Source of the DNA: Sinorhizobium psoraleae
GTDB lineage: Bacteria > Pseudomonadota > Alphaproteobacteria > Rhizobiales > Rhizobiaceae
Assembly (NCBI RefSeq): GCF_013283645.1
Contig: NZ_JABEKV010000003.1
Location: 372,001-436,000 of the forward strand
Direction of reading: 5' to 3'
Length of the DNA stretch: 64,000 nucleotides
Part shown: one piece after another, positions 10,008 through 35,467 of the stretch
Layout of the letters: every line of letters begins with the position of its first letter
How positions within the stretch are numbered: position 1 is the stretch's first letter
Translations under genes and position numbers: made by a program
Notes under the pieces: model-generated
What the model was told of the DNA's origin: nothing
Databases searched by the model: none
The model's input: only the letters and a program-made list of their open reading frames with translations

Positions 10008-10023
10008 GATAAGGCGTCTGCAC

Positions 10024-10090
10024 GTCTACTGCGCGGCGCGTCCAATCGGACGCTTTGAATTGCTGCACGATGGTCGATTCGAAATCGAAG
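10024..10090. repeat. Partial ABC-type repeat downstream of hypS
   Basis: It contains CTACTGCGCGGCGCGTCC, the AATCGGACGC palindrome and TTTGAATTGCTGCA, matching the first half of the elements at 6181 and 50301; the second hairpin is altered. Confidence 0.65.
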
Positions 10091-10101
10091 GCACCAACGA
10101 G

Positions 10102-10134
10102 AAAAGGCCCTCCGATCGGAGGGCCTTCTGTTTT
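10102..10134. terminator. Bidirectional terminator between hypS and hypD
   Basis: A perfect 10-bp stem AAGGCCCTCC / GGAGGGCCTT with loop GATC is flanked by A and T runs. It can end both convergent transcripts. Confidence 0.9.
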
Positions 10135-10151
10135 GGGGGCCGATGCGGCGA

Positions 10152-11114: not shown

Positions 11115-11197
11115 TTGAAACTCCTCTTGTCTTGTCGCGGGGCCACGGGCGTGCCCTTTGGTGCCGCTTCCGTGCCCTTGAAGCGAACAATAGCGTC

Positions 11198-11218
11198 TTG
11201 TATTTTATTTGTCGACAA
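11198..11218. promoter_or_regulatory. Candidate HypR operator before hypD
   Basis: TTGTATTTT (11198) is followed 11 bases later by the palindrome TTGTCGACAA (11209-11218), in the short gap between hypR and hypD. The phasing matches the other hyp promoters. Confidence 0.65.
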
Positions 11219-11233
11219 GAAAAATACAGGCCG

Positions 11234-11938: not shown

Positions 11939-11952
11939 TTGGCAAAATCCTC

Positions 11953-11962
11953 TTGTCGACAA
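11953..11962. promoter_or_regulatory. TTGTCGACAA palindrome before hypR
   Basis: An exact second copy of the 10-bp palindrome found before hypD, placed just upstream of the hypR ribosome site. Confidence 0.6.
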
Positions 11963-16463: not shown

Positions 16464-16695
16464 TCTTTTGCGCGGATTTGTTAGGGGCGAAACATCCAAG
16501 TACACGCGTTGGGCAAAGGCGAACCATTATCGACGTATTGCGCGACGATCAGGCCTCTGCGTTTCCTACGAGTCGAACCGCTTGACAGGACCGGGCAAAG
16601 AGCGGAAAACACCGCGCATGGGGGTTGCGATCACCCCACGAGGCGACAGCCGAAGCATCGCGTCCAATCAACCGCTCACACGGAGGACGCGTCAT

Positions 16696-17517: not shown

Positions 17518-18933
17518 ATGACCGAAACTGCAAACAGGGCCGCGCCGGGAGCGGCGCGGCAGGAATACGCCCACGGGATTCCGTTCGGCGAGGCCGTACG
17601 GGTCTGGGCAAGAATTGCGGCTTTGAGTTTCGGCGGTCCTGCCGGCCAGATTGCGGTGATGCATCGCATCCTCGTCGACGAAAAACGCTGGATCGGCGAG
17701 CACCGTTTTCTGCATGCCCTGAACTACTGCATGCTGCTGCCGGGACCGGAGGCGCAGCAGCTTGCGGTCTACATCGGCTGGCTCCTGCACCGTACCGCCG
17801 GCGGCCTCGTTGCCGGCACGCTGTTCGTGCTGCCGGGTTTCCTCTCCATTCTCGGCTTGAGCTATATCTACGCAGCCTTTGGCAATGTCACCGTCGTCGA
17901 AGGGCTGTTCTTCGGCCTGAAGGCGGCTGTGCTCGCCGTTGTCATTCATGCCGTATTCCGGATCGGTGCCAGGGCACTCAAGAACCGACTGATGATCGGC
18001 ATCGCGGCGGCCGCTTTCGTCGCCATTTTCTTCTTCCGCGTCCCATTCCCGCTGATCATCCTGGCCGCGGGTATATTCGGCTATGTCGGCGGCCGGTCCG
18101 GTTCGCCGCTCTTCCGGATTGGCGGCGGTCACAAGGCGGGATCCGGTCCTGTCCTGAAGGACGAAGATTCGCTGCTCGGAGAGGAAACTCCGGCCCATGC
18201 CCGTCCGAACCTTTCCTGGTCGCTGCGTGTCTCGGCGGCGTTCTTCGCGCTCTGGCTCGTTCCGTTGATGCTGCTTACCGCCTTCCTCGGCGTGGACAAT
18301 ATCTTTACCCAGATCGGGCTGTTCTTCAGCCAGATGGCCGTCGTCACCTTCGGCGGAGCTTATGCCGTGCTCGCCTATGTCGCCCAGGAAGCGGTTCAGC
18401 ACTACGGCTGGCTGAAGCCCGGCGAGATGCTCGACGGCCTCGGAATGGCCGAAACGACGCCTGGCCCTTTGATCATGGTTGTCCAGTTCGTCGGCTTCAT
18501 GGGGGCCTACCGTGATCCGGGCTCGCTGAACCCGATGACGGCGGCGACGCTTGCGGCTATCCTGACGACCTGGGTGACCTTCGTTCCCTGCTTCCTTTGG
18601 ATTTTCCTCGGAGCGCCTTTCATCGAGCGCCTTCGCAACAACGTGGCGCTGACCGGCGCAATGTCGGCAATCACCGCCGCGGTCGTCGGGGTGATCCTCA
18701 ACCTCGCCGTCTGGTTCGGGCTGCACACGCTGTTTGCAGAGGTGGTGACGTGGAGGCTCGGTTGGTTCGCGCTCGATGTCCCCGATCTATCCTCACTGGT
18801 GCTGCCATCGCTCGTGCTCACAGCGGCGGCCGCCATCGCAATCTTCCGTTTCCAAGCTTCGATCATCGCGACGCTGCTTGCCTGCGCCGTCGCCGGACTC
18901 GTTTGGACAGTCGGAGCAAATGCCTTGATCTAG
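17518..18933 (+). CDS. chrA: Chromate transporter, long-chain CHR family
   Basis: A 471-residue inner-membrane protein with two homologous CHR halves. The first opens with VRVWARIAALSFGGPAGQIAVMHR and the second repeats the motif as FFSQMAVVTFGGAYAVLAYV; each is followed by LLPGPEAQ or TTPGP motifs. About ten to twelve membrane segments. It effluxes chromate (with sulfate as likely mimic) and starts directly after the rhodanese-ChrB stop. Classified by the duplicated architecture typical of LCHR proteins. Confidence 0.92.
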   Translation: MTETANRAAPGAARQEYAHGIPFGEAVRVWARIAALSFGGPAGQIAVMHRILVDEKRWIGEHRFLHALNYCMLLPGPEAQQLAVYIGWLLHRTAGGLVAGTLFVLPGFLSILGLSYIYAAFGNVTVVEGLFFGLKAAVLAVVIHAVFRIGARALKNRLMIGIAAAAFVAIFFFRVPFPLIILAAGIFGYVGGRSGSPLFRIGGGHKAGSGPVLKDEDSLLGEETPAHARPNLSWSLRVSAAFFALWLVPLMLLTAFLGVDNIFTQIGLFFSQMAVVTFGGAYAVLAYVAQEAVQHYGWLKPGEMLDGLGMAETTPGPLIMVVQFVGFMGAYRDPGSLNPMTAATLAAILTTWVTFVPCFLWIFLGAPFIERLRNNVALTGAMSAITAAVVGVILNLAVWFGLHTLFAEVVTWRLGWFALDVPDLSSLVLPSLVLTAAAAIAIFRFQASIIATLLACAVAGLVWTVGANALI

Positions 18934-18970: not shown

Positions 18971-19981
18971 TCAGTTCGATTGAGACTCCTGGGCGCCTTC
19001 CGGTTTTGAAAGCCGCAAGGCCGTCTGCCAAAGATCGGCATCGACGCATACCGCCCGCTTTCGTCCGGAGTGTCCGGGAAGCCTTACGCCGGCGGCTTCA
19101 TGGGATGCGGTCAAACCGTTGACGGCATCGCAAAAGTGCCCGGCGGAGAAATGGCCGGGATCGATGGCAATCAGGAATTGCCCGACGCGCGGCGGGCCGC
19201 CCTCGTCGTTTCCAAAGGCGCTCGCCTCTGTGCTCAGCGCCGAACCGGTCAGGGCGGCGGCAAGGATTTCCACGAGAAGGGCGATATTGGCACCCTTGTG
19301 CCCGCCAGCCGGCAGAAGGGAACCTTCCAGGCCGGTGGCCGCGTCGGTCGTCGGCTTCCCATGCTTGTCCTGTGCCCAGCCGGTCGGGATCGCCTCTCCG
19401 CGATTGCGGCGCAGGATCATCTCCGTCTTGGTGACGGCGCTCATGCTCTGGTCGACGACAATGGGAGGAGCCCCTTCTGTCGAAGGTATGGCGAAGGCAA
19501 GCGGATTCGTGCCGAAGAGCGCCTCCGTCGCGCCGGGCGGCGCGACGGAGGCGGGCGCATTCGACAGGCAGATGCCGATCAGGCCGGCATCGGCGAGCGG
19601 GAGGACGTGATGGCCGAGCGCGAGGCAATTGTACGAGTTGCGCACTGCCATGGCCGCGACGCCGGCGCCTCGTGCGGCGCCGATCAGGGCCGGCATGCCG
19701 GCGGCAATGGCAGGATGCGCGAAGCCGTACCGTGCGTCGACCGCGACCGTGGCACCGCGTGTCGTCACGTCTGGAACGGCTTCTCCATCGACCTTGCCGA
19801 CCGTCAAATGCCTGCAGAAAATCGGCAGATAGTAGAGGCCGCAGACGCGATTGCCGTCCGCCTCCGCCCTGGCGATCGCCTGCGCCACGGGCAGCGCATT
19901 ATCGACAGTCGCGCCATGGCCTGTCAGCACCGACAGGCAAACCGCCTCGATCGTCTCCCGGGATGTTTCGACCGTGGTCAT
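18971..19981 (-). CDS. Ldh2-family NAD(P)H-dependent oxidoreductase
   Basis: A 336-residue malate/lactate/ureidoglycolate/pyrroline-carboxylate reductase family protein with LFGTNPLAFAIPS, the EAIPTGWAQDKHGKPTTD segment and LLPAGGHKGANIALLVEIL. It is a distant paralogue of HypS at 8970-10007. It is the last gene of the ten-gene quaternary-amine-like operon and its ATG overlaps the stop of the enolase-superfamily gene. Reduction of a cyclic imine or 2-oxo acid is likely; substrate unknown. Confidence 0.85.
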   Translation of the reverse strand: MTTVETSRETIEAVCLSVLTGHGATVDNALPVAQAIARAEADGNRVCGLYYLPIFCRHLTVGKVDGEAVPDVTTRGATVAVDARYGFAHPAIAAGMPALIGAARGAGVAAMAVRNSYNCLALGHHVLPLADAGLIGICLSNAPASVAPPGATEALFGTNPLAFAIPSTEGAPPIVVDQSMSAVTKTEMILRRNRGEAIPTGWAQDKHGKPTTDAATGLEGSLLPAGGHKGANIALLVEILAAALTGSALSTEASAFGNDEGGPPRVGQFLIAIDPGHFSAGHFCDAVNGLTASHEAAGVRLPGHSGRKRAVCVDADLWQTALRLSKPEGAQESQSN

Positions 19982-21102
19982 CGGCTTGCCGTGTAGCGTC
20001 TTTCACCTTTGGCGACGAGGTCGTCGGCAAGTTGGAAACCGAGACCCTGTTTCGTGAAGGCATCGAGCCAGCCGTTCCTGGGCGCCAGGTCAGGCGAGGA
20101 GACGATATCCTTCTGGACGAGCTGCCACATGATCTGGTTGCCATCGTCGAGATTGGGGATGGCTAGCCCGATGTGGTGCTCGGCGCAGGTGGTAATCCCG
20201 GTGGTGAAGGAAGAATGGATGCAGATTTTCAGCCCGGCGGATTCCGCTACAGCGGCCGCCTTCATCATCGGCTGTATTCCGCCGATCTCGCGCGGGCCGA
20301 TGCAAATCATGTCGGCGGCCCGCTGGCGGCAGATCTCGTACACATCGTAGAGTGTGAAGGCGGCCTGATCCGCAACGATCGGAATGCCGACCTTCTCACG
20401 CACATGCGCCATGGCGGGAATGCTCCAGCTCACCGTCGGCTGCTCGATGAACTCGATGTCGTACTTCTCGAGCTTGCGGCACATGTTGATCGCCTCGTGC
20501 ACGCTCCAGCCTTCGTTTGCGTCGAGGCGCAGGCGCGCGTCGCCGATCTCGCGGCGAACCGCCGCGGTGATCTCCAGATCGAGCTTCTCGCCGCGGCCAA
20601 CCTTGAGATAAAAGACACGCTCGCCCTGGGCATGACCGACGGCGGCATCACGTGCAAGCTCTTCGGCGGTCTCGCCCTGAAGGAAATAAAAGTAGCCGAC
20701 CGCCTTCCGGTGCGCCCCGCCAAGCAGTTGGTGCACTGGCAGGCCGGCGAGCTTGCCTTGAAGGTCCCACATAGCCATGTCGATGCCTGAGAACATCTGG
20801 TTGGCCGCCCGCATGATATTCGCGCCGTGCCCGAGATATTCCTGATGGAAGATGCGCGCGATGAGCGGCGCCACGTCATGGGGCGAATGGCCGACAAGAT
20901 GGTTGGCCAGGCGGTGAAGGATGGCCGCGGTTCCGGTCTGATCCGGCGCAACCGTGCACTCGCCGATACCGACCGTGCCGTCATCCGCCTCGACCTCGAT
21001 GAGATTGACAGCAAATGCTTCGCGAATGCCGTAGGACCAGTGGTAGGGCTGCTTCAGCGGCAGGACGAGCGGGCGGACGCGGACGCTTGATATCTTGACC
21101 AT
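19978..21102 (-). CDS. Enolase-superfamily (mandelate racemase/muconate lactonizing) enzyme
   Basis: A 374-residue protein with an N-terminal capping domain and a TIM barrel carrying the three metal ligands: Asp in LRLDANEGWS, Glu in IEFIEQP and Asp in IVADQAAF. The second-strand motif is FYLKVG, keeping only the second lysine of KxK; the sixth-strand region reads CIGPREIGG, without an obvious catalytic lysine. An IHSS motif follows. A role as racemase, epimerase or dehydratase of the imported substrate is plausible; the exact reaction is unknown. Confidence 0.85.
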   Translation of the reverse strand: MVKISSVRVRPLVLPLKQPYHWSYGIREAFAVNLIEVEADDGTVGIGECTVAPDQTGTAAILHRLANHLVGHSPHDVAPLIARIFHQEYLGHGANIMRAANQMFSGIDMAMWDLQGKLAGLPVHQLLGGAHRKAVGYFYFLQGETAEELARDAAVGHAQGERVFYLKVGRGEKLDLEITAAVRREIGDARLRLDANEGWSVHEAINMCRKLEKYDIEFIEQPTVSWSIPAMAHVREKVGIPIVADQAAFTLYDVYEICRQRAADMICIGPREIGGIQPMMKAAAVAESAGLKICIHSSFTTGITTCAEHHIGLAIPNLDDGNQIMWQLVQKDIVSSPDLAPRNGWLDAFTKQGLGFQLADDLVAKGERRYTASR

Positions 21103-21244
21103 TCTCGGGGTTCCTCAAAAAGGTGGCCGGCATTGGCCGAGCCATGCATTTGGCGCCCGGCTTTCCGGCACGCACCTTCCCCTCCCGCCTGCGGGAGAAC
21201 CTGCAGGCGGGCGAGACATTCGATAGGACGCGAAGAGCTTGGCC

Positions 21245-22135
21245 TTACATGCCGAGCGACTTCAGGTAGTCGGCGGCCACGGTTTCGATGGTTTTCTTCT
21301 CGACATCGACCTCGCTGTTCAAACGCTGCATCGTTGCATCGTCGAGCTTCGTCGAGACCGCTTCGAGCGTACCCTTAAGATCCGGATTCTCGTCGAGGAC
21401 TTCCTTGCGCACGACGGGGGTCAGCGCATAGTTCGGGAAGAAGCCTTTGTCGTCCTTCAGCGTCTTCAGGCCGAGTGCTGCGATCTGGCCGTCGGTCGCC
21501 TGGGCGGCGATCGTGTCGAGATCACCATTGGCGAGCGCGTTGTAGGCAAGACCAAGGTCCATCGGCCGCACATTGGCGCGCCCGGCCTCGAAACCGTAGA
21601 CCTCCTGCAAGCCGATCAGGCCGTCGGGGCGCTTGGGATATTCGGCCGTCGTCCCCATGAGAATTTCCTTGCCGTCGTTATACGCCTTGGCGAGGTCGGA
21701 GATCGTCTCCATGCCTTCCGTCTTGGCGTTGCCCGGCTTGATGACATAGGCGTAGGTGTTGTTCGCCGCGGACGGCGCCAGCCAGACGAGGCCTTTTTCG
21801 CCATCCAGTTTCTTGACGCGGTTGTAAGTCTCCTCCGGCGAAAGCCGTTCCGTCACCTTGTTGAAGGTGATGAGTGACGTCCCGGTATATTCCCAATAAA
21901 GATCGACCTCTCCGTTCTCCAGTGCGGCGCGGACGATCTTGGTGCCCATGCCGTCCTTCTTGTCGACGGTGTAGCCCTTGCTCTCGAGGAGCTGCTTGGT
22001 GATCTCTGCTATGATCAGCTGCTCGGTGAAGTTTTTCCCGCCGACGGTAAGCGTCGCTGCCCAGGCGGAGGTTGCGACGAGCGCGATGGCCGCCGCTGAT
22101 AGAAGGGTTTTGGCAAGTTTCGGTGCGAAGTTCAT
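21245..22135 (-). CDS. Glycine-betaine/osmoprotectant-type periplasmic binding protein (OpuC/OsmX-like)
   Basis: A 296-residue OpuAC-type solute-binding protein with signal peptide ending ATSAWA before ATLTVGGKNFTEQ. The motif VGGKNFTEQLIIAEI and ...LYWEYTGTSL are typical of OpuCC/OsmF/YehZ proteins that bind betaines, choline or related quaternary compounds. It is encoded after both permeases and the ATPase, and its presence indicates the operon imports a positively charged methylated solute. Confidence 0.9.
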   Translation of the reverse strand: MNFAPKLAKTLLSAAAIALVATSAWAATLTVGGKNFTEQLIIAEITKQLLESKGYTVDKKDGMGTKIVRAALENGEVDLYWEYTGTSLITFNKVTERLSPEETYNRVKKLDGEKGLVWLAPSAANNTYAYVIKPGNAKTEGMETISDLAKAYNDGKEILMGTTAEYPKRPDGLIGLQEVYGFEAGRANVRPMDLGLAYNALANGDLDTIAAQATDGQIAALGLKTLKDDKGFFPNYALTPVVRKEVLDENPDLKGTLEAVSTKLDDATMQRLNSEVDVEKKTIETVAADYLKSLGM

Positions 22136-22158
22136 TTCAGTTCCTCTCTCTCATTTTG

Positions 22159-22914
22159 TTATCGCAACGGATTGATGCCTCGTGGGACGAGGTAGTACTG
22201 GACCTGGCCGAATACGAAATCGACCAGGACCGCGATCATTGCCGTGGGAATGGCCCCGGCCATCATCATCGGGAGTTCGTCCAGCGAGATCCCGGTGAAG
22301 ATCAGTTCGCCAAGTCCGCCCGCGCCGATCAGAAAGACCAGCGGCGCGGATCCGACGCAGATCGCGAGCGCCGTGCGGATGCCGCCGAAGATCACGAAGA
22401 GGGCGTTTGGAAGTTCGACGCGCCACAAAACCTGCCGCGGCGTCATGCCCATGCCCGTTGCGGCTTCCACCAGGTGGGGCGGCACCGCGCGCAAGCCAGC
22501 ATAGGTGTTGCGCACGATCGGAAGGAGGGTCGCCGCCCAGAGCCCGAAGACCGCGGGCACCGTACCGATACCGAGCAGCGTCATGGAGAGCGCCAGGATC
22601 GCAAGGGTCGGCACGGTGCTGCCGATATTGAAAATCTGCATCACCGCCTCCGAAATGAAGCGGAAGGCAGGCCGTGAAAGCACGATGCCGACCGGCACGG
22701 CCACAAGGATGGCAAGGCCTCCAGCCCAAGCGACCAGTTCCAGGTGCTGAACGGCGAGATAGGAGATGTCATCGGAATAGGCGAGGATCTCCTCGGCCAT
22801 GCCGCTCCACCAAAGCCAGACGACAGTTCCGGCCAGAACGATGAGTACGATCATCGGTGCGATTTCGACCCGGCGGCGTTGCTGCGGTTCGGCCTGGTCG
22901 ACAAGAGCGCTCAT
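22159..22914 (-). CDS. Osmoprotectant-type ABC permease
   Basis: A 251-residue ProW/OpuCB-type inner-membrane protein with about five or six helices and the EAA-like segment PPHLVEAATGMGMTPRQVLW. Its start overlaps the ATPase stop (ATGA). It pairs with the second permease at 24023-24685 to form the heteromeric channel of an OpuC-type importer. Confidence 0.9.
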   Translation of the reverse strand: MSALVDQAEPQQRRRVEIAPMIVLIVLAGTVVWLWWSGMAEEILAYSDDISYLAVQHLELVAWAGGLAILVAVPVGIVLSRPAFRFISEAVMQIFNIGSTVPTLAILALSMTLLGIGTVPAVFGLWAATLLPIVRNTYAGLRAVPPHLVEAATGMGMTPRQVLWRVELPNALFVIFGGIRTALAICVGSAPLVFLIGAGGLGELIFTGISLDELPMMMAGAIPTAMIAVLVDFVFGQVQYYLVPRGINPLR

Positions 22915-24026
22915 GCCTTCCCTCCGTGGCCTAGGTTATGCACGATGGACCGGTAGCTCATAACGCCCGCCATCCGCCCGGCCTCGTCGACGCAGGGCAG
23001 TAGCGGCATGTCGTGCGCGAACATCAGCGACACGGCTTGCCGCAGATCACCGGTGGTCGGAACAGCAGACTTTACCGGTTCGGCATGATCGCCCACGGTA
23101 CCGGAGCGCACCTCTGCCGCCTGCTCGCTCAGAAGAGATTCCGGCACGCCATCGGCGTTAAGGACGAAGGCTGCAGCGCTGCGCGACGAACGCATGCGCT
23201 CAAGGGCATGCTCCAGCGAATCCGAGCGCCGAACCGTGATGAAGTCCGTCTCCATGGCGTCGCGCACCGAGACAAGCCTCAGCCGCTTGAGCGCCCGGTC
23301 CGAGCCCAGAAAGTCCTCGATGAAGCTGTTCGCGGGCCGGGCGAGCAACTCGTCTGGCGCGGCATACTGTTCGAGCTTGCCGCTACGGAAGATCGCGATC
23401 TTGTCCGCCATCTTCACCGCTTCGTCGAGATCGTGCGAGACGAAGATGATCGTCTTGCGGATTTCCCGCTGCATCTTCAGGAACTCCTCCTGGATGGCTT
23501 CGCGGTTGATGGGGTCGATCGCCCCGAACGGCTCGTCCATCAGCATGACCGGCGGATCGGCCGCAAGCGCACGCAGGACGCCGACGCGCTGCTGCTGGCC
23601 GCCTGAAAGTTCGTTCGGATAGCGCTTGAGGAAGAGGTCGGGCTGAAGCCCCACAAGCTCGAGGAGCTCTTTCGCTCGGGCGCGCGACTTGCGGCGGTCC
23701 CAGCCGAGCAGATCTGGCACCACACAGATGTTTTCCTCGATCGTCTTGTTTGGGAACAGGCCGATCTGCTGGATCACATAGCCGATGGACCGCCGGAGTT
23801 CGATTGGATCGACGGTGCTGGTGTCCTTGCCGTTGATGAAGACCTTGCCGCTGGTCGGCTGGATCAGCCGGTTGATCATCTTCATCGTCGTCGTCTTGCC
23901 GCAGCCCGACGGGCCAAGCAACACGCAGATCTCGCCGGTGGGGAGGTCGAAGCTTACGTTGTCGACCGCAACGAGAGGATCATGCGCCGGACCGTAGTGT
24001 TTCGTCAGGTTCTCGAGCCGGATCAT
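22911..24026 (-). CDS. Osmoprotectant-type ABC ATPase with CBS domains
   Basis: A 371-residue ATPase of the ProV/OpuCA class: Walker A LLGPSGCGKTTT, signature LSGGQQQR, Walker B VMLMDEPFGAID, H-loop FVSHDLDEA. After about residue 245 come two CBS motifs; in this class CBS modules sense ionic strength or nucleotides. The ATG giving MIRLENLTKHYG overlaps the stop of the upstream permease by four bases. Confidence 0.92.
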   Translation of the reverse strand: MIRLENLTKHYGPAHDPLVAVDNVSFDLPTGEICVLLGPSGCGKTTTMKMINRLIQPTSGKVFINGKDTSTVDPIELRRSIGYVIQQIGLFPNKTIEENICVVPDLLGWDRRKSRARAKELLELVGLQPDLFLKRYPNELSGGQQQRVGVLRALAADPPVMLMDEPFGAIDPINREAIQEEFLKMQREIRKTIIFVSHDLDEAVKMADKIAIFRSGKLEQYAAPDELLARPANSFIEDFLGSDRALKRLRLVSVRDAMETDFITVRRSDSLEHALERMRSSRSAAAFVLNADGVPESLLSEQAAEVRSGTVGDHAEPVKSAVPTTGDLRQAVSLMFAHDMPLLPCVDEAGRMAGVMSYRSIVHNLGHGGKA

Positions 24027-24685
24027 GGCGTGACCTCCCACCGGATGCCGCGTGATGTGAGAAGGCGCTGCACGAGCGCGAGGAAAAGGTCGGCTGCGAT
24101 GGCAAGCAGTGAGACCGCAAGTGCGCCGGTCACCAACTGACGGGGATCGGATTGGCTGATCCCGCGCGAGATGAAGGTGCCGAGACCGCCTGCCCCGATA
24201 TAGGCGGCAATCGCCGTCACGCCGATGTTCATGACGACGGCTGTCCGCACGCCGGCCATGATAACCGGGATGGCGAGCGGGATTTCGACCTGCCGCAGAC
24301 GCTGCCAGGTGCTCATGCCCATCCCTTTCGCGGCCTCGCGAAGAGCGGGATCGACATTGGTGATGGCGGTGTAGGTGTTTCGGATGATGGGGAGCTGGGA
24401 ATAGAGAATGACGGCTACCACCGCCGGGACATAGCCGATGCCGTGCCCGATCGGTGAGAGCAGCGGTATCATCAGGCCGAACAGCGCGATCGACGGAACG
24501 GTTATCATCATCGATGCAAGATAGAGAACGGTGTCGGCCGTGCTCTTCGACTGCGTGATGACAATCCCGATCGGTACCGCCGTCGCGATCGCAATCCCTA
24601 CCGCCAGGAAGACGATCGAGATGTGCTCGAGCGCCCGCGTGCCTATGATGTCCAGATTGTCGATGATGAACCGGACGATTTCCAT
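24023..24685 (-). CDS. Osmoprotectant-type ABC permease
   Basis: A 220-residue ProW/OpuCD-like permease with an EAA-type loop (DPALREAAKGMGMSTWQRLR) and about five or six membrane helices. Translation is coupled to the downstream ATPase gene. It is the first transporter gene of the operon and follows the cysteine hydrolase gene by 24 bases. Confidence 0.9.
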   Translation of the reverse strand: MEIVRFIIDNLDIIGTRALEHISIVFLAVGIAIATAVPIGIVITQSKSTADTVLYLASMMITVPSIALFGLMIPLLSPIGHGIGYVPAVVAVILYSQLPIIRNTYTAITNVDPALREAAKGMGMSTWQRLRQVEIPLAIPVIMAGVRTAVVMNIGVTAIAAYIGAGGLGTFISRGISQSDPRQLVTGALAVSLLAIAADLFLALVQRLLTSRGIRWEVTP

Positions 24686-24709
24686 TCGTTACGGCCAGCC
24701 TTTCATTGC

Positions 24710-25390
24710 CTAGAGTTCCCTGTAAAGTTCGGCAGCATTCTCGAAGGTGAAGCGCAGGGGCACGGATCCTTCGATCTGCCACGCGTCGACAGTGCTGCCC
24801 TCCAGCAGGGCGCACGCGGCTTGCGTGTCGACCACCGCGCCGCCATAGAGGCGGTTTGCAAGATTCAGTATACCCGCTTGGTGCATCGCAAGACCGCCGC
24901 TGCCGCAGGCGTCCTTGACGAGCAGGACATGCAGGCCGAAGTTGATCGCATCCTTGACCGTCGCGTCGACGCAGGCTTCGGTCCAGACACCGGCGATCAC
25001 CAGCCATTGCACGCCTGCGTCGCGCAATTCGCCAATCAGTGGACTTTTCCCGAAGGCGCTTGCTTCGTTCTTCACAAGCAGTCGCTCCGACGCGCGCGGA
25101 GCGACTTCGGGACAGATCGCCGTCAGCGGGTCGTCCTTGTCACTGAACGCAGAGCGCCCGTCCGGCCCGATTGGATGGAACGGGCGGACATGGTCGGCCA
25201 GGTCGACGATGTAGGCGCAGTGGAAGACGGGAATGCCGTTGCGGCGCGCCGAATCCTGAAGGCGGGCGGCATTGCGAAGAACCGCGTCGTAGCCCTCGAC
25301 GAGATAACGCTCGTCGTGGCGATGCTCCTCCTGGAGATCGATGACAAGGGCGGCAACCTTCTGACGCTCAATCCGCAACGGCTTCTTCAT
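24710..25390 (-). CDS. Isochorismatase-like cysteine hydrolase
   Basis: A 226-residue protein with the catalytic triad of the family: Asp in ALVIDLQEEHR, Lys in LLVKNEASAF and Cys in GVWTEACVDATV. Members hydrolyse C-N bonds (N-carbamoylsarcosine, nicotinamide, ureidoacrylate) or enol ethers. The ATG overlaps the M24 stop (TGATG); a TTG one codon earlier is less likely. In this operon it could deamidate or decarbamoylate an N-methylated intermediate, but the substrate is not readable from sequence. Confidence 0.85.
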   Translation of the reverse strand: MKKPLRIERQKVAALVIDLQEEHRHDERYLVEGYDAVLRNAARLQDSARRNGIPVFHCAYIVDLADHVRPFHPIGPDGRSAFSDKDDPLTAICPEVAPRASERLLVKNEASAFGKSPLIGELRDAGVQWLVIAGVWTEACVDATVKDAINFGLHVLLVKDACGSGGLAMHQAGILNLANRLYGGAVVDTQAACALLEGSTVDAWQIEGSVPLRFTFENAAELYREL

Positions 25391-26694
25391 CAAATCTCCC
25401 CGCTCAGGAATTCATCCTCATAAGGGAAGCGCGACAACAGTTCCGTGCCGGTTTCCGTGATGAGGATTTCGTCTTCGAGTTTCACGCCCTCGCGACCGCC
25501 CTTCTCGCCGATATAGCTCTCGACGGAGACGACCATTCCGGGCACGAGGTGCCCATCGCGACCATAGGTCTCGTAGTCCATTGCATGCGCGATGAACGGG
25601 GTCTCGCCATGCATGCCGACGCCGTGCATCACCGACGTGTAACGCTGATCGACGAAGCGGTCGGGTATCTTCCAGGCCTTTTCGGCGATCTCGCGGAAGG
25701 CCATGCCCGGCTTAACGATATCGATATTGTGCTGAACCTGCTCATAGGCCATCCGGTAGAGCGACTTCTGGTAAGGCGTCGGCTTGCCGGGACCGCAGCG
25801 GAAGGTGCGCGAGAAATCGGAGTAATAGCCGTAGCAGCCGATCGTGTCGGTATCGAGGGCAACGAGTTCCCCCGGCCTGATCTTCCGGCCGCTCGCCTCG
25901 TTGAACCAGGGGTTGGTTCGCTGGCCGGAACTCAGCAGGCGGGTCTCGATGAACTCGCCGCCCTGCCGGATGACTTCGTGATACATGATCGCGAAGAGCT
26001 CGTTTTCGGAAACGCCCGGCTTGATCGCTTCACGCACGGCGGCCACCGCGGCTTCGGCGCCGGCCATGGAAACCTGAAGGCACTTGATTTCTTCGGGGGT
26101 CTTGACTGCCCGGACGGCAAGAATTTCGCCCTGACAGTCCTTTACCTCGCAACCGCGCTTTTCGAGCGCCACGGCCTGCAGGTGGCTGCAGCGATCCATG
26201 CCGAGCTTCATCGATCCGCCGCCATGCTGCTTGAGCAAGTCGGTGATCTCGTCCGCGAACGGCCCGGCGGTCTCGTCGTCCTTACCGGAGACGGAGGACC
26301 AGACAAGCTTCGAGGGGCGAGCCTCATCGACCGTGTCGAGGACCATCGAGACATGATAGCTCTGCGGATATTCGAAGAGAACGATCGGGCCTTCGGCGGG
26401 AATGAAGAAATAGCGGGTGGAGTTGCGGAGGAAGTACCCGAACATGTTTCGGGAACCCGTCGCATAGCGCTGGTTATAAGGATCGAAAAGGACCACCGCG
26501 CCGTAGCCGGCCGCGCGCATCCAGTCGCGTAGCTTCTTCAGCCGTCCCTTGCGCAAGGCGTCGGCGTCGATGAAGGACGGCTCCGTGTCCGAAAGCCACA
26601 TGCCGCCGGCCGGATCGGCTGCCTCCGGATGGCGCATCCGGTCCTTGAAGTCCACATCGTCCACGCTGTCGGGGTCGAATACAACAATGCTCAT
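25390..26694 (-). CDS. M24 (creatinase/Xaa-Pro peptidase fold) enzyme resembling DMSP lyase DddP
   Basis: A 434-residue pita-bread protein. Metal-ligand positions are present: both Asp of LVALDTDTIG, Asp of YYSDFSRTF, His of VMHGVGMHG, Glu of VVSVESYIG and Glu of VKLEDEILITETG. By eye it resembles DddP in IETRLLSSGQRTNPWF, in FDPYNQRYAT and in a Tyr five residues before the metal His. DddP cleaves DMSP to acrylate and DMS; creatinase or a related C-N hydrolase remain alternatives. It lies between the GlxA regulator and the cysteine hydrolase. The MSIVVFDPDS start is taken as annotated by the frame; function beyond the fold is inference. Confidence 0.8.
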   Translation of the reverse strand: MSIVVFDPDSVDDVDFKDRMRHPEAADPAGGMWLSDTEPSFIDADALRKGRLKKLRDWMRAAGYGAVVLFDPYNQRYATGSRNMFGYFLRNSTRYFFIPAEGPIVLFEYPQSYHVSMVLDTVDEARPSKLVWSSVSGKDDETAGPFADEITDLLKQHGGGSMKLGMDRCSHLQAVALEKRGCEVKDCQGEILAVRAVKTPEEIKCLQVSMAGAEAAVAAVREAIKPGVSENELFAIMYHEVIRQGGEFIETRLLSSGQRTNPWFNEASGRKIRPGELVALDTDTIGCYGYYSDFSRTFRCGPGKPTPYQKSLYRMAYEQVQHNIDIVKPGMAFREIAEKAWKIPDRFVDQRYTSVMHGVGMHGETPFIAHAMDYETYGRDGHLVPGMVVSVESYIGEKGGREGVKLEDEILITETGTELLSRFPYEDEFLSGEI

Positions 26695-26785
26695 GACAAT
26701 CTCCTTTTCCAGCAGGATGGAGAAGAGTCGGAGCGCGCAATTGCGCGGATTCCGCAGTGTCTATGCTGGAATCCGCAGAGTTTCA

Positions 26786-27778
26786 TTATTTCAGCCCCGC
26801 GACTGCACGGGGCGCCTCGCCCGCCCGCGAGACGCGGCGGCGAACGCTGTGCGGCACGTATCCGAACTGCTGCTTGAAGGCGCGGGAGAAGTTTGCGGCA
26901 TTTCCAAAGCCGCAGGCGACGGCGACTTCATTCACCTTGAGACTGGAATGCGTCAGCATGTCTGCGGCATGACCCAGCCTCAGATTGCGATAATAGGCGT
27001 TGGGCGATACGCCCACTTCGGCCTTGAAGGCGCGTTCGAGTTTGTCGGATGAGACGTTAAGCCGGCTGGCCAGATCCTCGATGCGCAATACGTCCTCGAT
27101 AGCATCTTCCATCATCGCCACTGCGGAAAGGACGAGGTCGTCGACGATGCCGCTCCGGATACGCAATGTCAGCTTTCGCCGGTCCGCATCCGGGCGCAAT
27201 GGGCTGTGCATGTACCAGCCGGCGACACCGTCGGCGAGTTCGGCGCCATAATCCCGTCCGATCATGTCCAGCATCATGTCGAGGCTGCCGATGCCGCCGA
27301 CGGAGGTGAAGCGGCGGCGGTCGATCACATAAAGGTCCGAGCGCATGTCGAGATGCGGGAATGCTTCCTTGAAGGCAGGCTGGCTCGTCCAGTGCAGCGT
27401 GCAGGCGTGACCATCGAGCAATCCTTTGCGCGCGAGGAAGAAGGCCGCGTCCGCCACCGCGCCAAGCTGCGCACCGGAGCGGAGATTCTTGCGGATCCAC
27501 GCCATCTCCTCGTCCGCGACGAGGTGCTCCGCGTCCCCGCCGGAACACACGATGATCCTGTCGACCTCGGGTGCGTTGCGCACATGAAAGTCCGGTTCGA
27601 TCCCGATGCCGTTCGACGCCTTGATTTTCTCGCCGGCCGCGACCGTGATCCAGGAATAACAGCGCCTGCCGGAAAGCGTGTTGGCTGCGCGCAGCGGCTC
27701 GATGATCGAACTGAAGGCCATCAGCGGAAAGTTTGGAAACATCAAAACCGCAAGGCGGATTTCCTGCGTATCCTTCAT
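26786..27778 (-). CDS. GlxA/AraC-family transcriptional regulator (DJ-1/PfpI-type sensor domain)
   Basis: A 330-residue protein with an N-terminal class-I glutamine-amidotransferase-like domain (about 5-190, CSGGDAEH at the nucleophile elbow) and a C-terminal AraC DNA-binding domain (about 220-320, IEDLASRLNVSSDKLERAF and a second helix-turn-helix VNEVAVACGFGNAANFSRAF). This architecture is shared with GbdR, CdhR and SouR, which control glycine betaine, carnitine and sarcosine catabolism. It is second in the operon, 8 bases after the MttB-like gene. Confidence 0.9.
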   Translation of the reverse strand: MKDTQEIRLAVLMFPNFPLMAFSSIIEPLRAANTLSGRRCYSWITVAAGEKIKASNGIGIEPDFHVRNAPEVDRIIVCSGGDAEHLVADEEMAWIRKNLRSGAQLGAVADAAFFLARKGLLDGHACTLHWTSQPAFKEAFPHLDMRSDLYVIDRRRFTSVGGIGSLDMMLDMIGRDYGAELADGVAGWYMHSPLRPDADRRKLTLRIRSGIVDDLVLSAVAMMEDAIEDVLRIEDLASRLNVSSDKLERAFKAEVGVSPNAYYRNLRLGHAADMLTHSSLKVNEVAVACGFGNAANFSRAFKQQFGYVPHSVRRRVSRAGEAPRAVAGLK

Positions 27779-27786
27779 CGGCCCCC

Positions 27787-29322
27787 TCAAGGTTCGCCCG
27801 CCCCGATCTCCGCGCGCCGCTTGATCATGTAGGCATCGAGCTCTTCTCGGATTGCCGGGTCGAGTGCCGGCTCCTCGTATTCACGCAAGGCCTGCTGCCA
27901 GATGTCGGTCGCGCGCTCCAGCGCATCGCGCCCACCCGCCTCCTGCCAGCTGCCGTAGTTCTGCCAGTTGGACAGCATCGGCTGGTAGAAGGCCGTCTCG
28001 TACCGCGCCATCGTGTGTTCTGAACCGAAAAAGTGTCCGCCGGCGGGTACCGCCTTGATGGCTTCGAAACCGAGATCGTCCTCGGAGAAGGGCATGGGCG
28101 CGAGAAAGCCCATCATGTTCTGCAGGATCTCCACGTCGAGCACGAGCTTCTCATAGGACGCCGTCAATCCGCCTTCGAGCCATCCCGCAGCGTGATAGAT
28201 GAGGTTGGCGCCGCCAAGCACCGCACCCCAGGTCGCCATCTCCGTCTCATACGCCGCCTGGAGGTCGACAACGTTCGAGGCGTTGGCGTTCGATGTGCGA
28301 TAGGGCAGCTTGTAGCGCCGCGCGAGCTGGCCCGCGATGACGTTCGCCTTGGCGTTCTCCGGCGTTCCGAAGGCTGGCGCGCCGGAGCGCATGTCCACGT
28401 TGGACGTGAACGCGCCGTACATGACCGGCGTCCCCGGATTGACCAGCTGCGCGAGCGTGACGCCGAACAGCGCCTCGGCATTCTGCTGGCAGAGCGCCGC
28501 CGCCAGCGTCACCGGCGTCATGGCGCCCATGAGCGTGAAGGGCGTGATGGTCACCGGCTGCCCGTGCTCGGCCATGGCGATCAGTCCGTCAGCCATCGCA
28601 TCGTCGAAAAGCCGCGGCGAGTTCACAGAGATGATGGTGATGACACCGGGGGATTGGCGCATCTCCTCGACGCTGATGCCGCGCGCGATTGCCATCATGT
28701 TGATGCCGTCGACGGCGCGCCCGCGGCCGATAGCGGTACAGTGGAAGCAGAGATCGCTGAGTGTAAGATTTGCGTTGTAGGTATCGAGGTGCCGCGAATT
28801 GGCCGGCAGCTCGATCGGTGCGCACACCTGGTTTCCAAGAATATGGATCGCGTTGAAGTAATGGGCCAGCCGCGTGAAGTTCTGGTAATCGGTCAGATTG
28901 CCCTGCCGCCGGCCGTTGATCCGGTCGTGCACGTTCGGCGGGCCCGCCACGAGACCGAAAGCCATCGTATTGCCGCCGACCGTCAGCCGCTTCGCCGGGT
29001 TGCGGCTGGTGAGCGTGAAGGAGGACGGTGCGGTGGCCAGTGCGGCGTCGACAATGGATTCGTCGACTCGGACCGTCAGGTTCGCGCGGTCGACGATGGC
29101 GCCCGCCTTCTCGAACAGCGTCATCGCCTTTTCGCTCATGACGCGGATGCCGATTTCCGAGAGAATGCGTATCGAATTGCGATGAAGCGCCTCTATACGC
29201 TCCTCATCGACAAGCTTCATCGGGGTATAGGTATTGACGACCTCCTGCCATGGTAGCTGTGAGATGCCGCCGCCGCCCCGGGTTGCCCGCGATCGCCGTC
29301 CGCCGCCGCGTCTATCACTCAT
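27787..29322 (-). CDS. MttB/trimethylamine methyltransferase family protein (non-pyrrolysine)
   Basis: A 511-residue COG5598 protein. The homology begins PWQEVVNTYTPMKLVDEERIEAL and runs to the end. There is no in-frame amber codon, so it is the pyrrolysine-free type whose characterised members demethylate glycine betaine, proline betaine or carnitine onto a corrinoid protein. The chosen ATG gives an Arg/Gly-rich leader (MSDRRGGGRRSR). It heads the operon; no corrinoid protein or reactivase gene is visible in the window. Confidence 0.87.
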   Translation of the reverse strand: MSDRRGGGRRSRATRGGGGISQLPWQEVVNTYTPMKLVDEERIEALHRNSIRILSEIGIRVMSEKAMTLFEKAGAIVDRANLTVRVDESIVDAALATAPSSFTLTSRNPAKRLTVGGNTMAFGLVAGPPNVHDRINGRRQGNLTDYQNFTRLAHYFNAIHILGNQVCAPIELPANSRHLDTYNANLTLSDLCFHCTAIGRGRAVDGINMMAIARGISVEEMRQSPGVITIISVNSPRLFDDAMADGLIAMAEHGQPVTITPFTLMGAMTPVTLAAALCQQNAEALFGVTLAQLVNPGTPVMYGAFTSNVDMRSGAPAFGTPENAKANVIAGQLARRYKLPYRTSNANASNVVDLQAAYETEMATWGAVLGGANLIYHAAGWLEGGLTASYEKLVLDVEILQNMMGFLAPMPFSEDDLGFEAIKAVPAGGHFFGSEHTMARYETAFYQPMLSNWQNYGSWQEAGGRDALERATDIWQQALREYEEPALDPAIREELDAYMIKRRAEIGAGEP

Positions 29323-29550: not shown

Positions 29551-30438
29551 ATGAAGCCGCCACCGCCATTGAACTACATCCGGTCCTTCGAGTGCTCCGC
29601 CCGGCATCTAAGCTTCACTGAGGCGGCCAACGAACTGGGCTATACGCAGGCCGCCATCAGCAATCACGTGCGCGCGCTCGAACAATATCTCGGGCGCCAG
29701 CTCTTTATTCGCTATCCGCGGAGCCTCAAGCTGACCGAGATGGGGGAGGCCTTTCTTCCCACCCTGCGCCAGGCACTCACCCAGATCGATTTCGCCACGG
29801 AAGCCGTCCTGGCTTCAGCGCGCAACAAAACTGTGGTCATCTCCTGCCCGACGAGCCTTGCCGAAAATTGGCTGGCAAAGTGCGTCGCCGGTTTCAGCAG
29901 GAAACATCCTGACGTCGAAATCCTTCTGCATGGCACGATCTGGGAGGATTCGACCGAGCAGATCGCCGATATCCTCATTTCGATCCGTCGCTTCGACAAT
30001 ATGCCGGCAAACGGCATGCAATTGTGGAACGACAGGCTCGTGCTTCTGTGCGCGCCGCAACTCGTCCACGGCCAGAATTCCATCAAGACGCCGGGGGACC
30101 TTCTGAGATCGAACTGGATCGCCGTGCACGGACGGCAGGAGTTCTGGCAGGACATGGCCGACGCGCTCGGCATCGATGCATCCGCAAACGACAAGCGGCT
30201 TTCCACGAACTCCACAAACATCGCGCTGGAGATGGCGGCGAGCGGCGCCGGCTGCATCGTGACCACCCAGTCGCTTGCGCGGACCTACATCGACCGTGGC
30301 CTGCTCGTCGAGCCGTTCCAGACCCGGACCAAGAGCGCGTGGAACTACTACCTCGCCGAGGGCCAGGCGTCAAAAAGCACGACTGTCGCCAAGGTGCGCG
30401 AGTGGATTGTCGCCGAGGCCCAGAAGGTGATCGGCTGA
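29551..30438 (+). CDS. LysR-family transcriptional regulator (GcvA-like)
   Basis: A 295-residue regulator with an N-terminal winged helix (LSFTEAANELGYTQAAISNHV, about residues 20-40) and a periplasmic-binding-like effector domain. The similarity is to GcvA-type regulators. It is divergent from the MttB-like operon and 223 bases upstream of the dimethylglycine-dehydrogenase-like gene on the same strand, so it may control one or both. Confidence 0.9.
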   Translation: MKPPPPLNYIRSFECSARHLSFTEAANELGYTQAAISNHVRALEQYLGRQLFIRYPRSLKLTEMGEAFLPTLRQALTQIDFATEAVLASARNKTVVISCPTSLAENWLAKCVAGFSRKHPDVEILLHGTIWEDSTEQIADILISIRRFDNMPANGMQLWNDRLVLLCAPQLVHGQNSIKTPGDLLRSNWIAVHGRQEFWQDMADALGIDASANDKRLSTNSTNIALEMAASGAGCIVTTQSLARTYIDRGLLVEPFQTRTKSAWNYYLAEGQASKSTTVAKVREWIVAEAQKVIG

Positions 30439-30661: not shown

Positions 30662-33082
30662 ATGCGCTCCCACGCTCAAGCGGTCGTCATCGGCGGCGGT
30701 CTCATCGGTTGTTCCATTCTCTACCATCTCACCAAGCTCGGCTGGTCCGACGTCGTACTTTTGGAGCGCAGCGAACTGACGTCGGGTTCGACCTGGCATG
30801 CGGCGGCCAATATCCACGGCCTGCACGACTCCACCAATATCAGCCTGCTCCAGCACTATACCATGACGCTTTACAAGGAACTGGAAGTGGAGACCGGGCA
30901 AGGCTGCGGCGTCTTCCAGCCAGGCTCCCTCTATCTCGCGCAGACCGAGGCGCGCGAGCATCAGCTCAGGCTGCAGGAGGCCAAGGCGCGCCGATACAAG
31001 ATGAACTTCTACGAGATCGGTCGTGACGAGGCGGAGCGCCTGCATCCGCTCGTCAATTTCGACGGCATCCGCTGCATCATGTACGAGCCCGAGGGCGGTA
31101 ATGTCGACCCCTCCGGCGTCACGATGGCCTATGCCGCCGGCGCGCGCCGGCGGGGTGCGGAAATCCACCGTTTCACACCAGTGATCGGCACCGAGGCGCA
31201 ACCGGACGGCAGCTGGATCGTGCGCACGCCCAAAGGCGACATCCGCACCCAATGGGTCGTCAACGCGGCCGGGTTGTGGGGCCGTGAAGTCGCCGCCATG
31301 GCGGGGCTCGAACTTCCGTTGATCCCGACGGAACACCAGTATTTCGTGACCGAGACGATCCCGGAAATCGCCGCGCTCGACCGGCGGCTTCCCTCCGTGG
31401 CGGACCGCGACGGCGAATATTACCTCCGGCAGGAAGGCCTCGGCCTTTTGATCGGCGCCTATGAACGCGACATGCGCTTCTGGGCAGAGGAAGGCACGCC
31501 GCTCGGCTTCGGCCACGAGCTCTTCCCCGACGATCTCGAACGCATCGAGGACAACATGATGCGCGCCATCGACCGTGTGCCGGTCGTCGGAATGGCGGGC
31601 ATCAAGCGCGTGATCAACGGGCCGATGATCTGGTCGCCGGACAGCGCGGTCCTCTTCGGCCCCGTGCCGGAGCTGACGAACTACTTCTGCTGCAACGGCA
31701 TCATCCCCGGCTTCTCGCAGTCGGGCGGCATGGGCAAACTTGCGGCGGAGTGGATGATAGAGGGTGAACCGTCGCTCGACATGTTCGGCTGGGACATGGC
31801 GCGTTTCGGCAACTGGGCGAACAAGGCCTTCACCAAGGCGCGCGTGCAGGACCAGTACAGCCACCGCTTCAAGATCCACTTCCCCAACGAGGAGCGGGCG
31901 GCCGGCCGACCCGTTCGCACCCGGCCGGCCTATGAGAAACAGAAGGCTATGGGCGCGGTCTTCGGCCTCAATTTCGGCTGGGAACATCCGCTCTGGTTCT
32001 CCGCCGATGGCGAGCCGAAGGAAGAGACAATCGGCTTTATCCGCCAGAACTGGTGGGCGCCCGTCGGCCGCGAGGCCCGCATGCTGCGCGAGAATGCCGG
32101 CATCATCGACATATCCAACTTCGCCAAATATGCGGTGAAGGGGCCCGGCGCCGCCGAGTGGCTTGACGCGCTCTTCGCCAACCGCATGCCGACTGAGATC
32201 GGCCGCTCGTGCCTGACGCCGCTCATCGGCAAGCGCGGCGGCATCGCGGGAGATTTCACCGTGACGAAGCTCGGCGAGCACGAGTTCATGATTTTCGGCT
32301 CCGGCATGGCGGAGCGCTACCACCAGCGGTTCTTCAAGGCGGTTCCGCTGCCAGAAGGCACCACCTTCACGTCGATGACGGAGCGCCTCTGCGCCTTCAA
32401 CATCGCCGGTCCGAAATCCCGCGAATTGCTCATGCGGCTGACGAACGAAGACCTTTCCAACGAGAGCTTCCCGTTCATGCGGTCGCGCAGGATGAGTGTC
32501 GCGGGCGTCGATGTCGTCGCGCTGCGCGTCTCCTTCACCGGTGATCTCGGCTGGGAGCTCTACTGCGACGCCGACCAGCAGGTCGCGCTCTACGACGCCT
32601 TGCTCGAGGCCGGCAAGGACCTCGGCGCAGGCCCGGTCGGCTCACGCGCGCTCGCCTCGCTGCGCATAGAAAAGGGCTACGGCAGCTGGAGCCGCGAGTA
32701 CTCGCCGGAATATTGGCCGCAGGAAAGTGGTCTCGGCCGCTTGATCAAGATCGACAAGGGCGCCTTCCTGAACAGGGACGCCTATCAGAAGATTGCCGGG
32801 GAGCACCCGAGGCAGAAGCTCGCCATGGTATCAATCGACGCCAGGGATGCGGATGCCACCGGCGGCGAGCCGATCTTTCTTCATGACGGCACCCCGATCG
32901 GCCAGGTCTCGTCCGGCGCGTATGGCTATAGCGTCGGCATGTCGCTCGCCCTCTGCTACATCAAGGCCGATATGGCGAAGCCGGGGGACAAGGTCAGCGT
33001 CGCGATCCTCGGCCGTCCCCATGATGCAATAGTCCTGGAACGGCCGCCGTTCGACCCGGAAGGGGAAAGGCTGAGATCGTGA
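30662..33082 (+). CDS. Dimethylglycine/sarcosine dehydrogenase-like flavoprotein with GcvT domain
   Basis: An 806-residue three-part protein. An N-terminal FAD domain (VVIGGGLIGCSILYHL, about 9-24) carries the STWHAA motif where family members bind FAD covalently through His. A middle FAO_M domain and a C-terminal GcvT/aminomethyltransferase domain (about 420-800) follow. Such enzymes oxidatively N-demethylate methylated amines and hand the one-carbon unit to tetrahydrofolate. The ATG giving MRSHAQAVV is chosen over a TTG three codons upstream. It is followed by a strong terminator. Confidence 0.88.
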   Translation: MRSHAQAVVIGGGLIGCSILYHLTKLGWSDVVLLERSELTSGSTWHAAANIHGLHDSTNISLLQHYTMTLYKELEVETGQGCGVFQPGSLYLAQTEAREHQLRLQEAKARRYKMNFYEIGRDEAERLHPLVNFDGIRCIMYEPEGGNVDPSGVTMAYAAGARRRGAEIHRFTPVIGTEAQPDGSWIVRTPKGDIRTQWVVNAAGLWGREVAAMAGLELPLIPTEHQYFVTETIPEIAALDRRLPSVADRDGEYYLRQEGLGLLIGAYERDMRFWAEEGTPLGFGHELFPDDLERIEDNMMRAIDRVPVVGMAGIKRVINGPMIWSPDSAVLFGPVPELTNYFCCNGIIPGFSQSGGMGKLAAEWMIEGEPSLDMFGWDMARFGNWANKAFTKARVQDQYSHRFKIHFPNEERAAGRPVRTRPAYEKQKAMGAVFGLNFGWEHPLWFSADGEPKEETIGFIRQNWWAPVGREARMLRENAGIIDISNFAKYAVKGPGAAEWLDALFANRMPTEIGRSCLTPLIGKRGGIAGDFTVTKLGEHEFMIFGSGMAERYHQRFFKAVPLPEGTTFTSMTERLCAFNIAGPKSRELLMRLTNEDLSNESFPFMRSRRMSVAGVDVVALRVSFTGDLGWELYCDADQQVALYDALLEAGKDLGAGPVGSRALASLRIEKGYGSWSREYSPEYWPQESGLGRLIKIDKGAFLNRDAYQKIAGEHPRQKLAMVSIDARDADATGGEPIFLHDGTPIGQVSSGAYGYSVGMSLALCYIKADMAKPGDKVSVAILGRPHDAIVLERPPFDPEGERLRS

Positions 33083-33268: not shown

Positions 33269-35467
<2,199 letters not shown>

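Follow-up and report, generated by a model that had tools for sequence, protein, structure and literature searches.

The closest described systems to the locus analysed here are the hydroxyproline-betaine/proline-betaine (hpb) pathway, the MtgBCDE system of glycine betaine demethylation, the LhpJ and Pyr2C reductase system, and DddP, a lyase of dimethylsulfoniopropionate (DMSP). An operon of ten minus-strand genes at positions 18971–29322 of a 64,000-nucleotide stretch of Sinorhizobium psoraleae DNA (contig NZ_JABEKV010000003.1, positions 372,001 to 436,000; hereafter the window) shares features with each of them and departs from each. The hpb pathway, which reportedly uses Rieske demethylases, resembles it in a betaine importer, an enolase-superfamily enzyme predicted to act at the alpha-carbon and stepwise N-demethylation, but the operon has an MttB-superfamily methyltransferase together with a flavoenzyme of the dimethylglycine/sarcosine-dehydrogenase type (DMGDH-type), an M24 metalloenzyme and an isochorismatase-fold hydrolase, and its enolase-superfamily enzyme carries YxK instead of KxK. 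Similarly, MtgBCDE is matched by an MttB-superfamily protein in an aerobic alphaproteobacterium and a presumed shared MtgC (available text of PMC12478193), whereas the MttB here comes with an importer and a regulator of its own, and no corrinoid gene turned up in its vicinity. The LhpJ system also couples an enolase-superfamily enzyme to an imine reductase (available text of PMC5144071), but the operon enzyme scores below the NF043002 cut-off and N-demethylases occur in the operon setting. DddP is likewise an M24-family protein with the same metal ligands and Tyr366, but Asp377 is replaced by Gly and the score lies below the family cut-off.

No paper describing this exact gene set was found in the open-access literature, most subscription journals being outside the scope of the search, and the available part of PMC11337228 contains nothing on the route proposed below. 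The original prediction had called the system new, which holds for a gene set undescribed in that literature; it is not unique, since the same operon (~89% identical) is present on pSymA, the symbiotic megaplasmid of S. meliloti 1021, so that a genetically tractable model already carries it.

The reading preferred here, given a probability of about one half, is that of an inducible operon that imports a betaine-type amino-acid derivative and removes its N-methyl groups one by one; the compound is most likely of the plant proline-betaine/hydroxyproline-betaine/pipecolate-betaine class. The OpuC-type ABC importer would bring in the onium compound, MttB would hand one methyl group to a corrinoid protein whose gene lies elsewhere, probably the MtgC-type one on contig C34, and the divergent DMGDH-type flavoenzyme would pass the next methyl group to tetrahydrofolate. 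The YxK…H enolase-superfamily enzyme would act at the alpha-carbon beside the carboxylate, by 2-epimerisation or dehydration, and Ldh2 would reduce the cyclic imine or 2-oxo acid so formed; a C–N bond would be cut by the M24 metalloenzyme together with the isochorismatase-fold hydrolase, a step not placed in this putative order, and the GbdR-type regulator is predicted to bind a 21-bp direct repeat before the M24 gene. Gene families, synteny, co-occurrence, active-site residues and the conservation of the repeat are read directly from sequence, whereas the reactions and their order, the corrinoid partner, the regulator–repeat pairing, inducibility and the substrate class are predictions. Proline-type betaines lead among the candidate substrates, with N-methylated beta-hydroxy amino acids close behind.

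A wider proposal, more tentative and rated somewhat below an even chance, is that one betaine of plants or algae is handled by a B12-linked pathway that is widespread but undescribed and centres on two enzymes with new functions. In this pathway, the YxK…H enolase clade (60 of 78 loci, from Rhizobiales to Rhodobacterales and beyond) would act on the alpha-carbons of N-methylated amino acids, a DddP-like M24 enzyme lacking the DMSP-lyase base would cut the C–N bond of a betaine intermediate, and the GbdR-type regulator would activate both blocks at once through the 21-bp repeat. If the operon were solved, 2PGW, a structure already determined but misnamed, would gain a function, as would an enolase clade whose catalytic residues are unusual and a DddP-like branch that lacks the DMSP-lyase base; the result would also put to the test the prediction, printed in the available text of PMC12478193, that in aerobic bacteria one corrinoid partner serves several MttB proteins. 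It has been reported that stachydrine, a betaine, is exuded by Medicago seeds and that its use aids S. meliloti on roots (available text of PMC12239276); SMa1462, which by map position may lie in the operon (candidate tags near SMa1462–SMa1470), is listed as a betaine-type transporter gene (available text of PMC3596328).

Operon layout, conservation and operator-like repeat

All ten genes were recovered with the families that had been predicted: the non-pyrrolysine MttB-superfamily methyltransferase (27787–29322, 511 residues), a GbdR/GlxA-type AraC-family regulator (26786–27778), the DddP-like M24 metalloenzyme (25390–26694), the isochorismatase-fold cysteine hydrolase (24710–25390; PF00857), OpuC-type permease 1 (24023–24685), a ProV/OpuCA-type ATPase with a CBS domain (22911–24026; PF00571), OpuC-type permease 2 (22159–22914), an OpuAC/OsmF-type substrate-binding receptor (21245–22135), the enolase-superfamily enzyme (19978–21102) and an Ldh2-family NAD(P)-linked reductase (18971–19981; PF02615, 270 bits). 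The repeated four-base overlaps also bear out, with three of 4 bp (permease/ATPase, ATPase/permease and enolase/Ldh2) and one of 1 bp (M24/isochorismatase). Two members on the plus strand had been missed, a divergent LysR regulator (29551–30438), kept beside the operon in L018–L022, L096 and L097, and the 806-residue DMGDH-type flavoenzyme (30662–33082). Because both adjoin the operon in Shinella, Root482, Pseudaminobacter and S. meliloti, they are taken to be part of the same system.

The importer is complete, as had been proposed: the ATPase lies above the proV-family cut-off (TIGR01186, 346.8 vs 326.6, scored on the longer frame 22911–25007), the receptor reaches 222.7 bits against a PF04069 cut-off of 21.2 (NF049931, 185.6 vs cut-off 400), PF00528 is found on permease 2, and permease 1 is 39% identical to permease 2. 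The intergenic gaps are 8 bp (MttB–GbdR), 91 bp (GbdR–M24) and 142 bp (receptor–enolase), the others being 24 bp and 23 bp; the 91-bp and 142-bp gaps, before M24 and before the enolase, are long enough to hold internal signals of the putative operon. The 142-bp gap (21103–21244) contains a GC-rich inverted repeat, gcctgcagg...cccgcaggcggg, a similar form of which is present in the Rhizobiaceae copies and which is possibly an mRNA-stabilising or attenuating hairpin.

Operon DNA has matches in 90 plasmid records, 65 of which cover at least 80% of the query and 64 of which are named Sinorhizobium, with identities of 89.1–89.3% among the 40 matches listed. The gene set is also found in Rhizobium, Shinella, Pseudaminobacter, Mesorhizobium and Labrys, in some of them incomplete or in a different order; in Pseudaminobacter (L022), for instance, it is split into MttB–GbdR, enolase–Ldh2 and M24–isochorismatase–importer blocks. 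Among 33 genomes of the genus, the own genome included, orthologues of the enolase (94–100%), M24 (97–100%) and MttB (93–100%) co-occur in the same five, the best matches in the other 28 being ~32%, 47% and 48%, respectively, and this sharing indicates that the grouping is more than chance. A scan of genome contigs with the enolase gave at least 78 distinct loci, 60 of the 78 with a relative at ≥38% identity. Operon-type M24, isochorismatase and receptor genes occur together in nine loci, eight of which also have MttB and GbdR, while the ninth (L023) is cut at that edge. Genes of relatives were called with a custom codon-score caller, which gave few or no genes in L034, L035, L037 and L069; longest open reading frames were substituted in L028, L035, L037, L043, L051, L052 and L063.

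In all genes measured (MttB and GbdR being unmeasurable in L023, and Ldh2 in L024), just 40–58% of the four-fold degenerate sites are shared with Pseudaminobacter, Mesorhizobium and Labrys, so no operon gene looks recently arrived. Recent transfer was considered as the cause of the near-identical M24 proteins and rejected, as the M24 four-fold sites are about as diverged as those of the other genes. Protein identity to the same three genera is 93–94% for M24, 87–91% for the enolase, 84–89% for MttB, 84–90% for permease 1, 85% for the DMGDH-type enzyme (L022 only) and 77–81% for permease 2, and is lower for the ATPase and receptor (67–76%), the regulators (66–74%), and the isochorismatase and Ldh2 (64–69%). 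M24, the enolase and MttB appear to form the core that determines the substrate, followed closely by permease 1 and the DMGDH-type enzyme.

The operator-like site (26752–26775, minus strand; CGGA-N5-GCAYAG-N4-YGCGG) was found by alignment and by pattern and matrix scans. Across genera, the conserved sequence before the M24 gene is GCGGA-N5-GCAYAG-N4-YGCGG, that is, two GCGG half-sites in direct repeat at 21-bp spacing, with little else kept; L021 has the variant ACGGA. The own 7.43-Mb genome has a single exact copy of the 24-base pattern CGGA...GCGG, and up to one mismatch gives 13 matches there vs 6 for the reversed pattern. The exact pattern is present in 13 of 119 loci, always just before the operon-type M24 gene, and in 13 of the 13 loci with that gene start, the window copy included; several of these loci are close relatives, the distinct lineages being Rhizobiaceae, Labrys, Mesorhizobium and Pseudaminobacter. 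A weighted matrix from 11 sites, scanned over 1.40 Mb with a reversed control peaking at 13.3, gave its best other matches before an SBP5–hydrolase–enolase–Ldh2 block (L022:7246, 18.8) and between Ldh2 and SBP5–enolase (L041:8226, 16.9). Matches without explanation were L030:561 (16.0), L044/L045:4448 (15.5) and L018:3275 (15.5), and in L057 the full site is not recognisable, though its neighbour set is the same as in L041. With up to two mismatches, the window holds two matches vs 1.62 expected, which is not special.

The regulator has the DJ-1/PfpI plus AraC (HTH_18) architecture, but its GbdR score (NF052371, 282.4) is below the equivalog cut-off of 480. Binding of this GbdR-type protein at the 21-bp repeat is a predicted pairing, and the operator-like repeat itself is, as a candidate site, a new observation. 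Its position in the 91-bp gap suggests a further promoter within the operon. An operator before MttB was also considered and rejected, the sole matrix match in the window being the site before M24; the MttB–LysR intergenic region has conserved blocks of other kinds.

Enolase-superfamily enzyme and Ldh2

In 55 of 55 aligned rows (52 distinct; the window enzyme and its near copies are among them), Y165-x-K167 stands in place of the KxK motif, and D194, E220, D245-Q246, G269, E272, H296 and D319-D320 are invariant. Alignment to muconate cycloisomerase 3CT2 and to dipeptide epimerase 3JVA places Tyr at the first KxK lysine and Gly269 at the beta-6 lysine. Muconate cycloisomerases are marked by KxK on beta-2 and a lysine near beta-6; the window enzyme has neither and scores 138.7 vs 334.95 bits on TIGR02534. 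H296 is, by its spacing, presumably the counterpart of the catalytic His of mandelate racemase, and the alpha-proton would be abstracted by K167, with H296 opposite. An orthologous structure, PDB 2PGW, deposited as 'Muconate cycloisomerase', is ~95% identical to the window enzyme, and, apart from the first residue, the differences visible in the alignment coincide with the 18 positions that set the S. meliloti 1021 pSymA copy apart from that enzyme, which identifies 2PGW as that copy. Judged by these active-site residues, the deposited name is unsupported. Many of the 60 best PDB matches have generic names only, and HpbD was not identifiable there.

The 51 more distant enolase loci (DEMETHYLASES) include 24 in which one or more of the partners tested lie within the available DNA: Ldh2 in 10, isochorismatase in 8, a DHDPS-type protein in 7, a DMGDH-type enzyme in 5, MttB, GbdR, SBP5 and SoxA in 2 each, and an FMN-type enzyme in 1, while M24 and the OpuAC receptor were found in 0 of 51. 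For instance, L043 has MttB, an FMN-oxidoreductase, Ldh2 and CN_hydrolase, with no isochorismatase seen; L035 has Rieske and DMGDH-type genes beside the enolase, with no MttB seen; L028 has a DMGDH-type gene and a TRAP importer; L063 and L073 have sarcosine oxidase and Ldh2; and an Agrobacterium locus (T29) has a dimethylamine monooxygenase. The DHDPS-type protein beside the L063 enolase had no BLAST match to that of the window at E 1e-5. These partner swaps are chemically sensible and support a family of N-methyl amino-acid pathways rather than one substrate.

Several observations weigh against the preferred reading. No tested partner was seen within the available DNA in 27 of the 51 distant loci, some of which are short and a few duplicates. 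The three Labrys loci yielded no Ldh2, and FMN-type oxidoreductases adjoin the enolase there. In all four other operon-bearing genomes, the hydroxyproline cluster that lies near the operon in the window is on a different contig. To our knowledge, no characterised pathway uses an M24 and isochorismatase pair on a proline-type betaine, so this step stays unexplained. In P. seriniphilus, genes for sarcosine oxidase and for threonine breakdown (threonine dehydrogenase and glycine C-acetyltransferase) accompany the enolase, a pairing that suggests a different substrate, an N-methylated beta-hydroxy amino acid.

The strongest rival builds on such a pairing and proposes an N-methylated beta-hydroxy amino acid or a 3-hydroxyproline-type substrate, with the enolase as dehydratase or epimerase and Ldh2 as imine reductase, on the model of 3-hydroxyproline catabolism. 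We regard it as unlikely, though the best placed of the alternatives: an enolase is followed by Ldh2 (40–66% identity) in L022, L046, L049 and L053, the best PDB match of Ldh2 is delta1-piperideine-2-carboxylate reductase 1WTJ, and the enolase-superfamily LhpJ performs such a 2-epimerisation/dehydration (available text of PMC5144071), but the enolase scores 118 against the NF043002 cut-off of 500 for the enolase-type cis-3-hydroxyproline dehydratase, and M24 and the isochorismatase are again unexplained.

MttB, its corrinoid partner and the demethylases

The methyltransferase belongs to the MttB superfamily (PF06253, 690.6 vs 25 bits) and is not the pyrrolysine-type trimethylamine methyltransferase, with 308.6 vs 525 bits on TIGR02369 and no in-frame stop; its solved relatives include glycine betaine methyltransferase 9YCE. 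No corrinoid gene was found in the window, and contig C23 has no B12-binding_2 match. In the own genome, a short stand-alone corrinoid gene is present only on C34, where it adjoins another MttB with an MTHFR-type gene ~5 kb away; further B12-binding_2 matches are in a 1277-residue frame, MetH-like in size, and, weakly, in a 705-residue frame. Each of the 33 genus genomes has 3–6 MttB matches (fragments counted), and in 32 of them a single B12-binding_2 match falls in a short frame (241–294 residues), in every case within ~2.1 kb of an MttB (hand count); G015 has no short-frame match at E 0.001. The operon MttB is 38–39% identical to the MttB beside the corrinoid gene. It has been proposed that several MttB-type proteins may share one MtgC, and further MttB substrates are predicted (available text of PMC12478193); the operon is a concrete case of this idea, the sharing itself being already in print there. 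Other MttB paralogues of the own genome lie beside an FMN-type oxidoreductase or two DMGDH-type genes (L118, 5609–9250; L119, 2389–9020), and these loci are probably further betaine systems.

The flavoenzyme at 30662–33082 has the full dimethylglycine/sarcosine dehydrogenase architecture (DAO, FAO_M, GCV_T and GCV_T_C), with orthologues of 85–98% identity in L018 and L019 (both cut), L022, L096 and L097, and of 69–80% in L028, L035, L036, L051 and L052. Recurrent neighbours of the operon or of enolase relatives are DMGDH-type, heterotetrameric sarcosine oxidase, FMN-type, Rieske and dimethylamine monooxygenase genes.

These demethylases could also suit an accessory operon for glycine betaine or a choline-derived compound, in which MttB, DMGDH and sarcosine oxidase would lead to glycine and the other genes would be peripheral. 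The OpuC importer, the GbdR-like regulator, MttB, the DMGDH-type enzyme and the sarcosine oxidase adjoining the operon in Shinella and Root482 are in line with this, but we think it improbable, slightly more so than the hydroxy amino acid just discussed. Another MttB already lies near the corrinoid gene in all 32 genomes having one, a pairing consistent with the S. meliloti mtg locus (available text of PMC12478193); glycine has no alpha-stereocentre for an epimerase; and M24 and the enolase are hardly peripheral, being strongly constrained.

M24–isochorismatase pair and neighbouring genes

The M24 protein keeps six positions that we take to be the DddP metal ligands (D281, D283, D293, H357, E392 and E407), as well as Tyr366. 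The residue equivalent to DddP Asp377, presumably the catalytic base, is Gly363 in the window and Gly in nine of nine operon copies aligned; the 4S01 chain has Asn there, agreeing with its being, as we assume, the D377N variant. Three of four distant M24 relatives keep the Asp, and Paracoccus aminophilus has Gly. By annotation, the R. leguminosarum relative has as neighbours a ring-hydroxylating (Rieske-type) oxygenase, a 4-hydroxyproline epimerase and an ABC importer for betaine. In Mesorhizobium, MttB and regulators of the GlxA type lie nearby, in M382 oxygenase genes do, and in P. aminophilus the relative adjoins a five-gene ABC importer and an aldehyde dehydrogenase. In the isochorismatase-fold hydrolase, D19, K108 and C141 (numbered on the 227-residue frame 24710–25393) are invariant in 18 of 18 aligned rows. 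An AlphaFold model of the M24 protein alone, with no alignment, had a mean pLDDT of 36.9 and was not used.

The combination of M24, isochorismatase and sarcosine oxidase/dehydrogenase genes recalls a creatine or N-carbamoyl-type pathway, in which M24 would resemble creatinase, the isochorismatase N-carbamoylsarcosine amidase, and sarcosine dehydrogenase would act last; there are weak PDB matches to N-carbamoylsarcosine amidohydrolase and creatinase. Creatinase has the M24 fold without the metal site. The window protein keeps the full six-ligand site and matches DddP-type 4S01 at 250 bits vs 43 bits for creatinase, and MttB and the onium importer would be unexplained, so that this pathway is quite unlikely. 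Cleavage of DMSP or another DddP-type beta-elimination is very improbable, for although DddP is the best named family of the M24 protein and the ligands and Tyr366 are kept, Asp377 is Gly throughout the operon copies and the score is 320.7 against the curated NF043017 cut-off of 600 bits. Of the quaternary-amine or DMSP-type catabolism in the original prediction, the betaine-type part is thus upheld by the importer, MttB, the GbdR-like regulator and the neighbouring demethylases, and the DMSP-type part is not.

An L-hydroxyproline catabolism cluster lies at 145–11962, with LhpI (cis-3-hydroxyproline dehydratase) and 4-hydroxyproline epimerase above their cut-offs, and with a D-amino-acid dehydrogenase-like gene, an amino-acid-type ABC importer, Ldh2-type and DHDPS-type genes and a GntR regulator. 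Its adjacency was rejected as proof of a hydroxyproline-betaine substrate, given the separate contigs elsewhere and the presence of LhpI in 25 of the 33 genus genomes. Within it, a 734-residue open frame (7803–10007) has an Ldh2 domain in its C-terminal half only; the N-terminal 397 residues, without a Pfam match at E 0.001, are perhaps a non-coding extension. Annotated neighbours of operon copies include 3-hydroxyacyl-CoA dehydrogenase and thiolase (S. meliloti ml28) and mmsB (Shinella). In the window, a ChrB-like gene and a chromate transporter (16468–18933) adjoin the operon end, and a catalase-peroxidase (HPI, above cut-off; 33269–35449) lies beyond the DMGDH-type gene.

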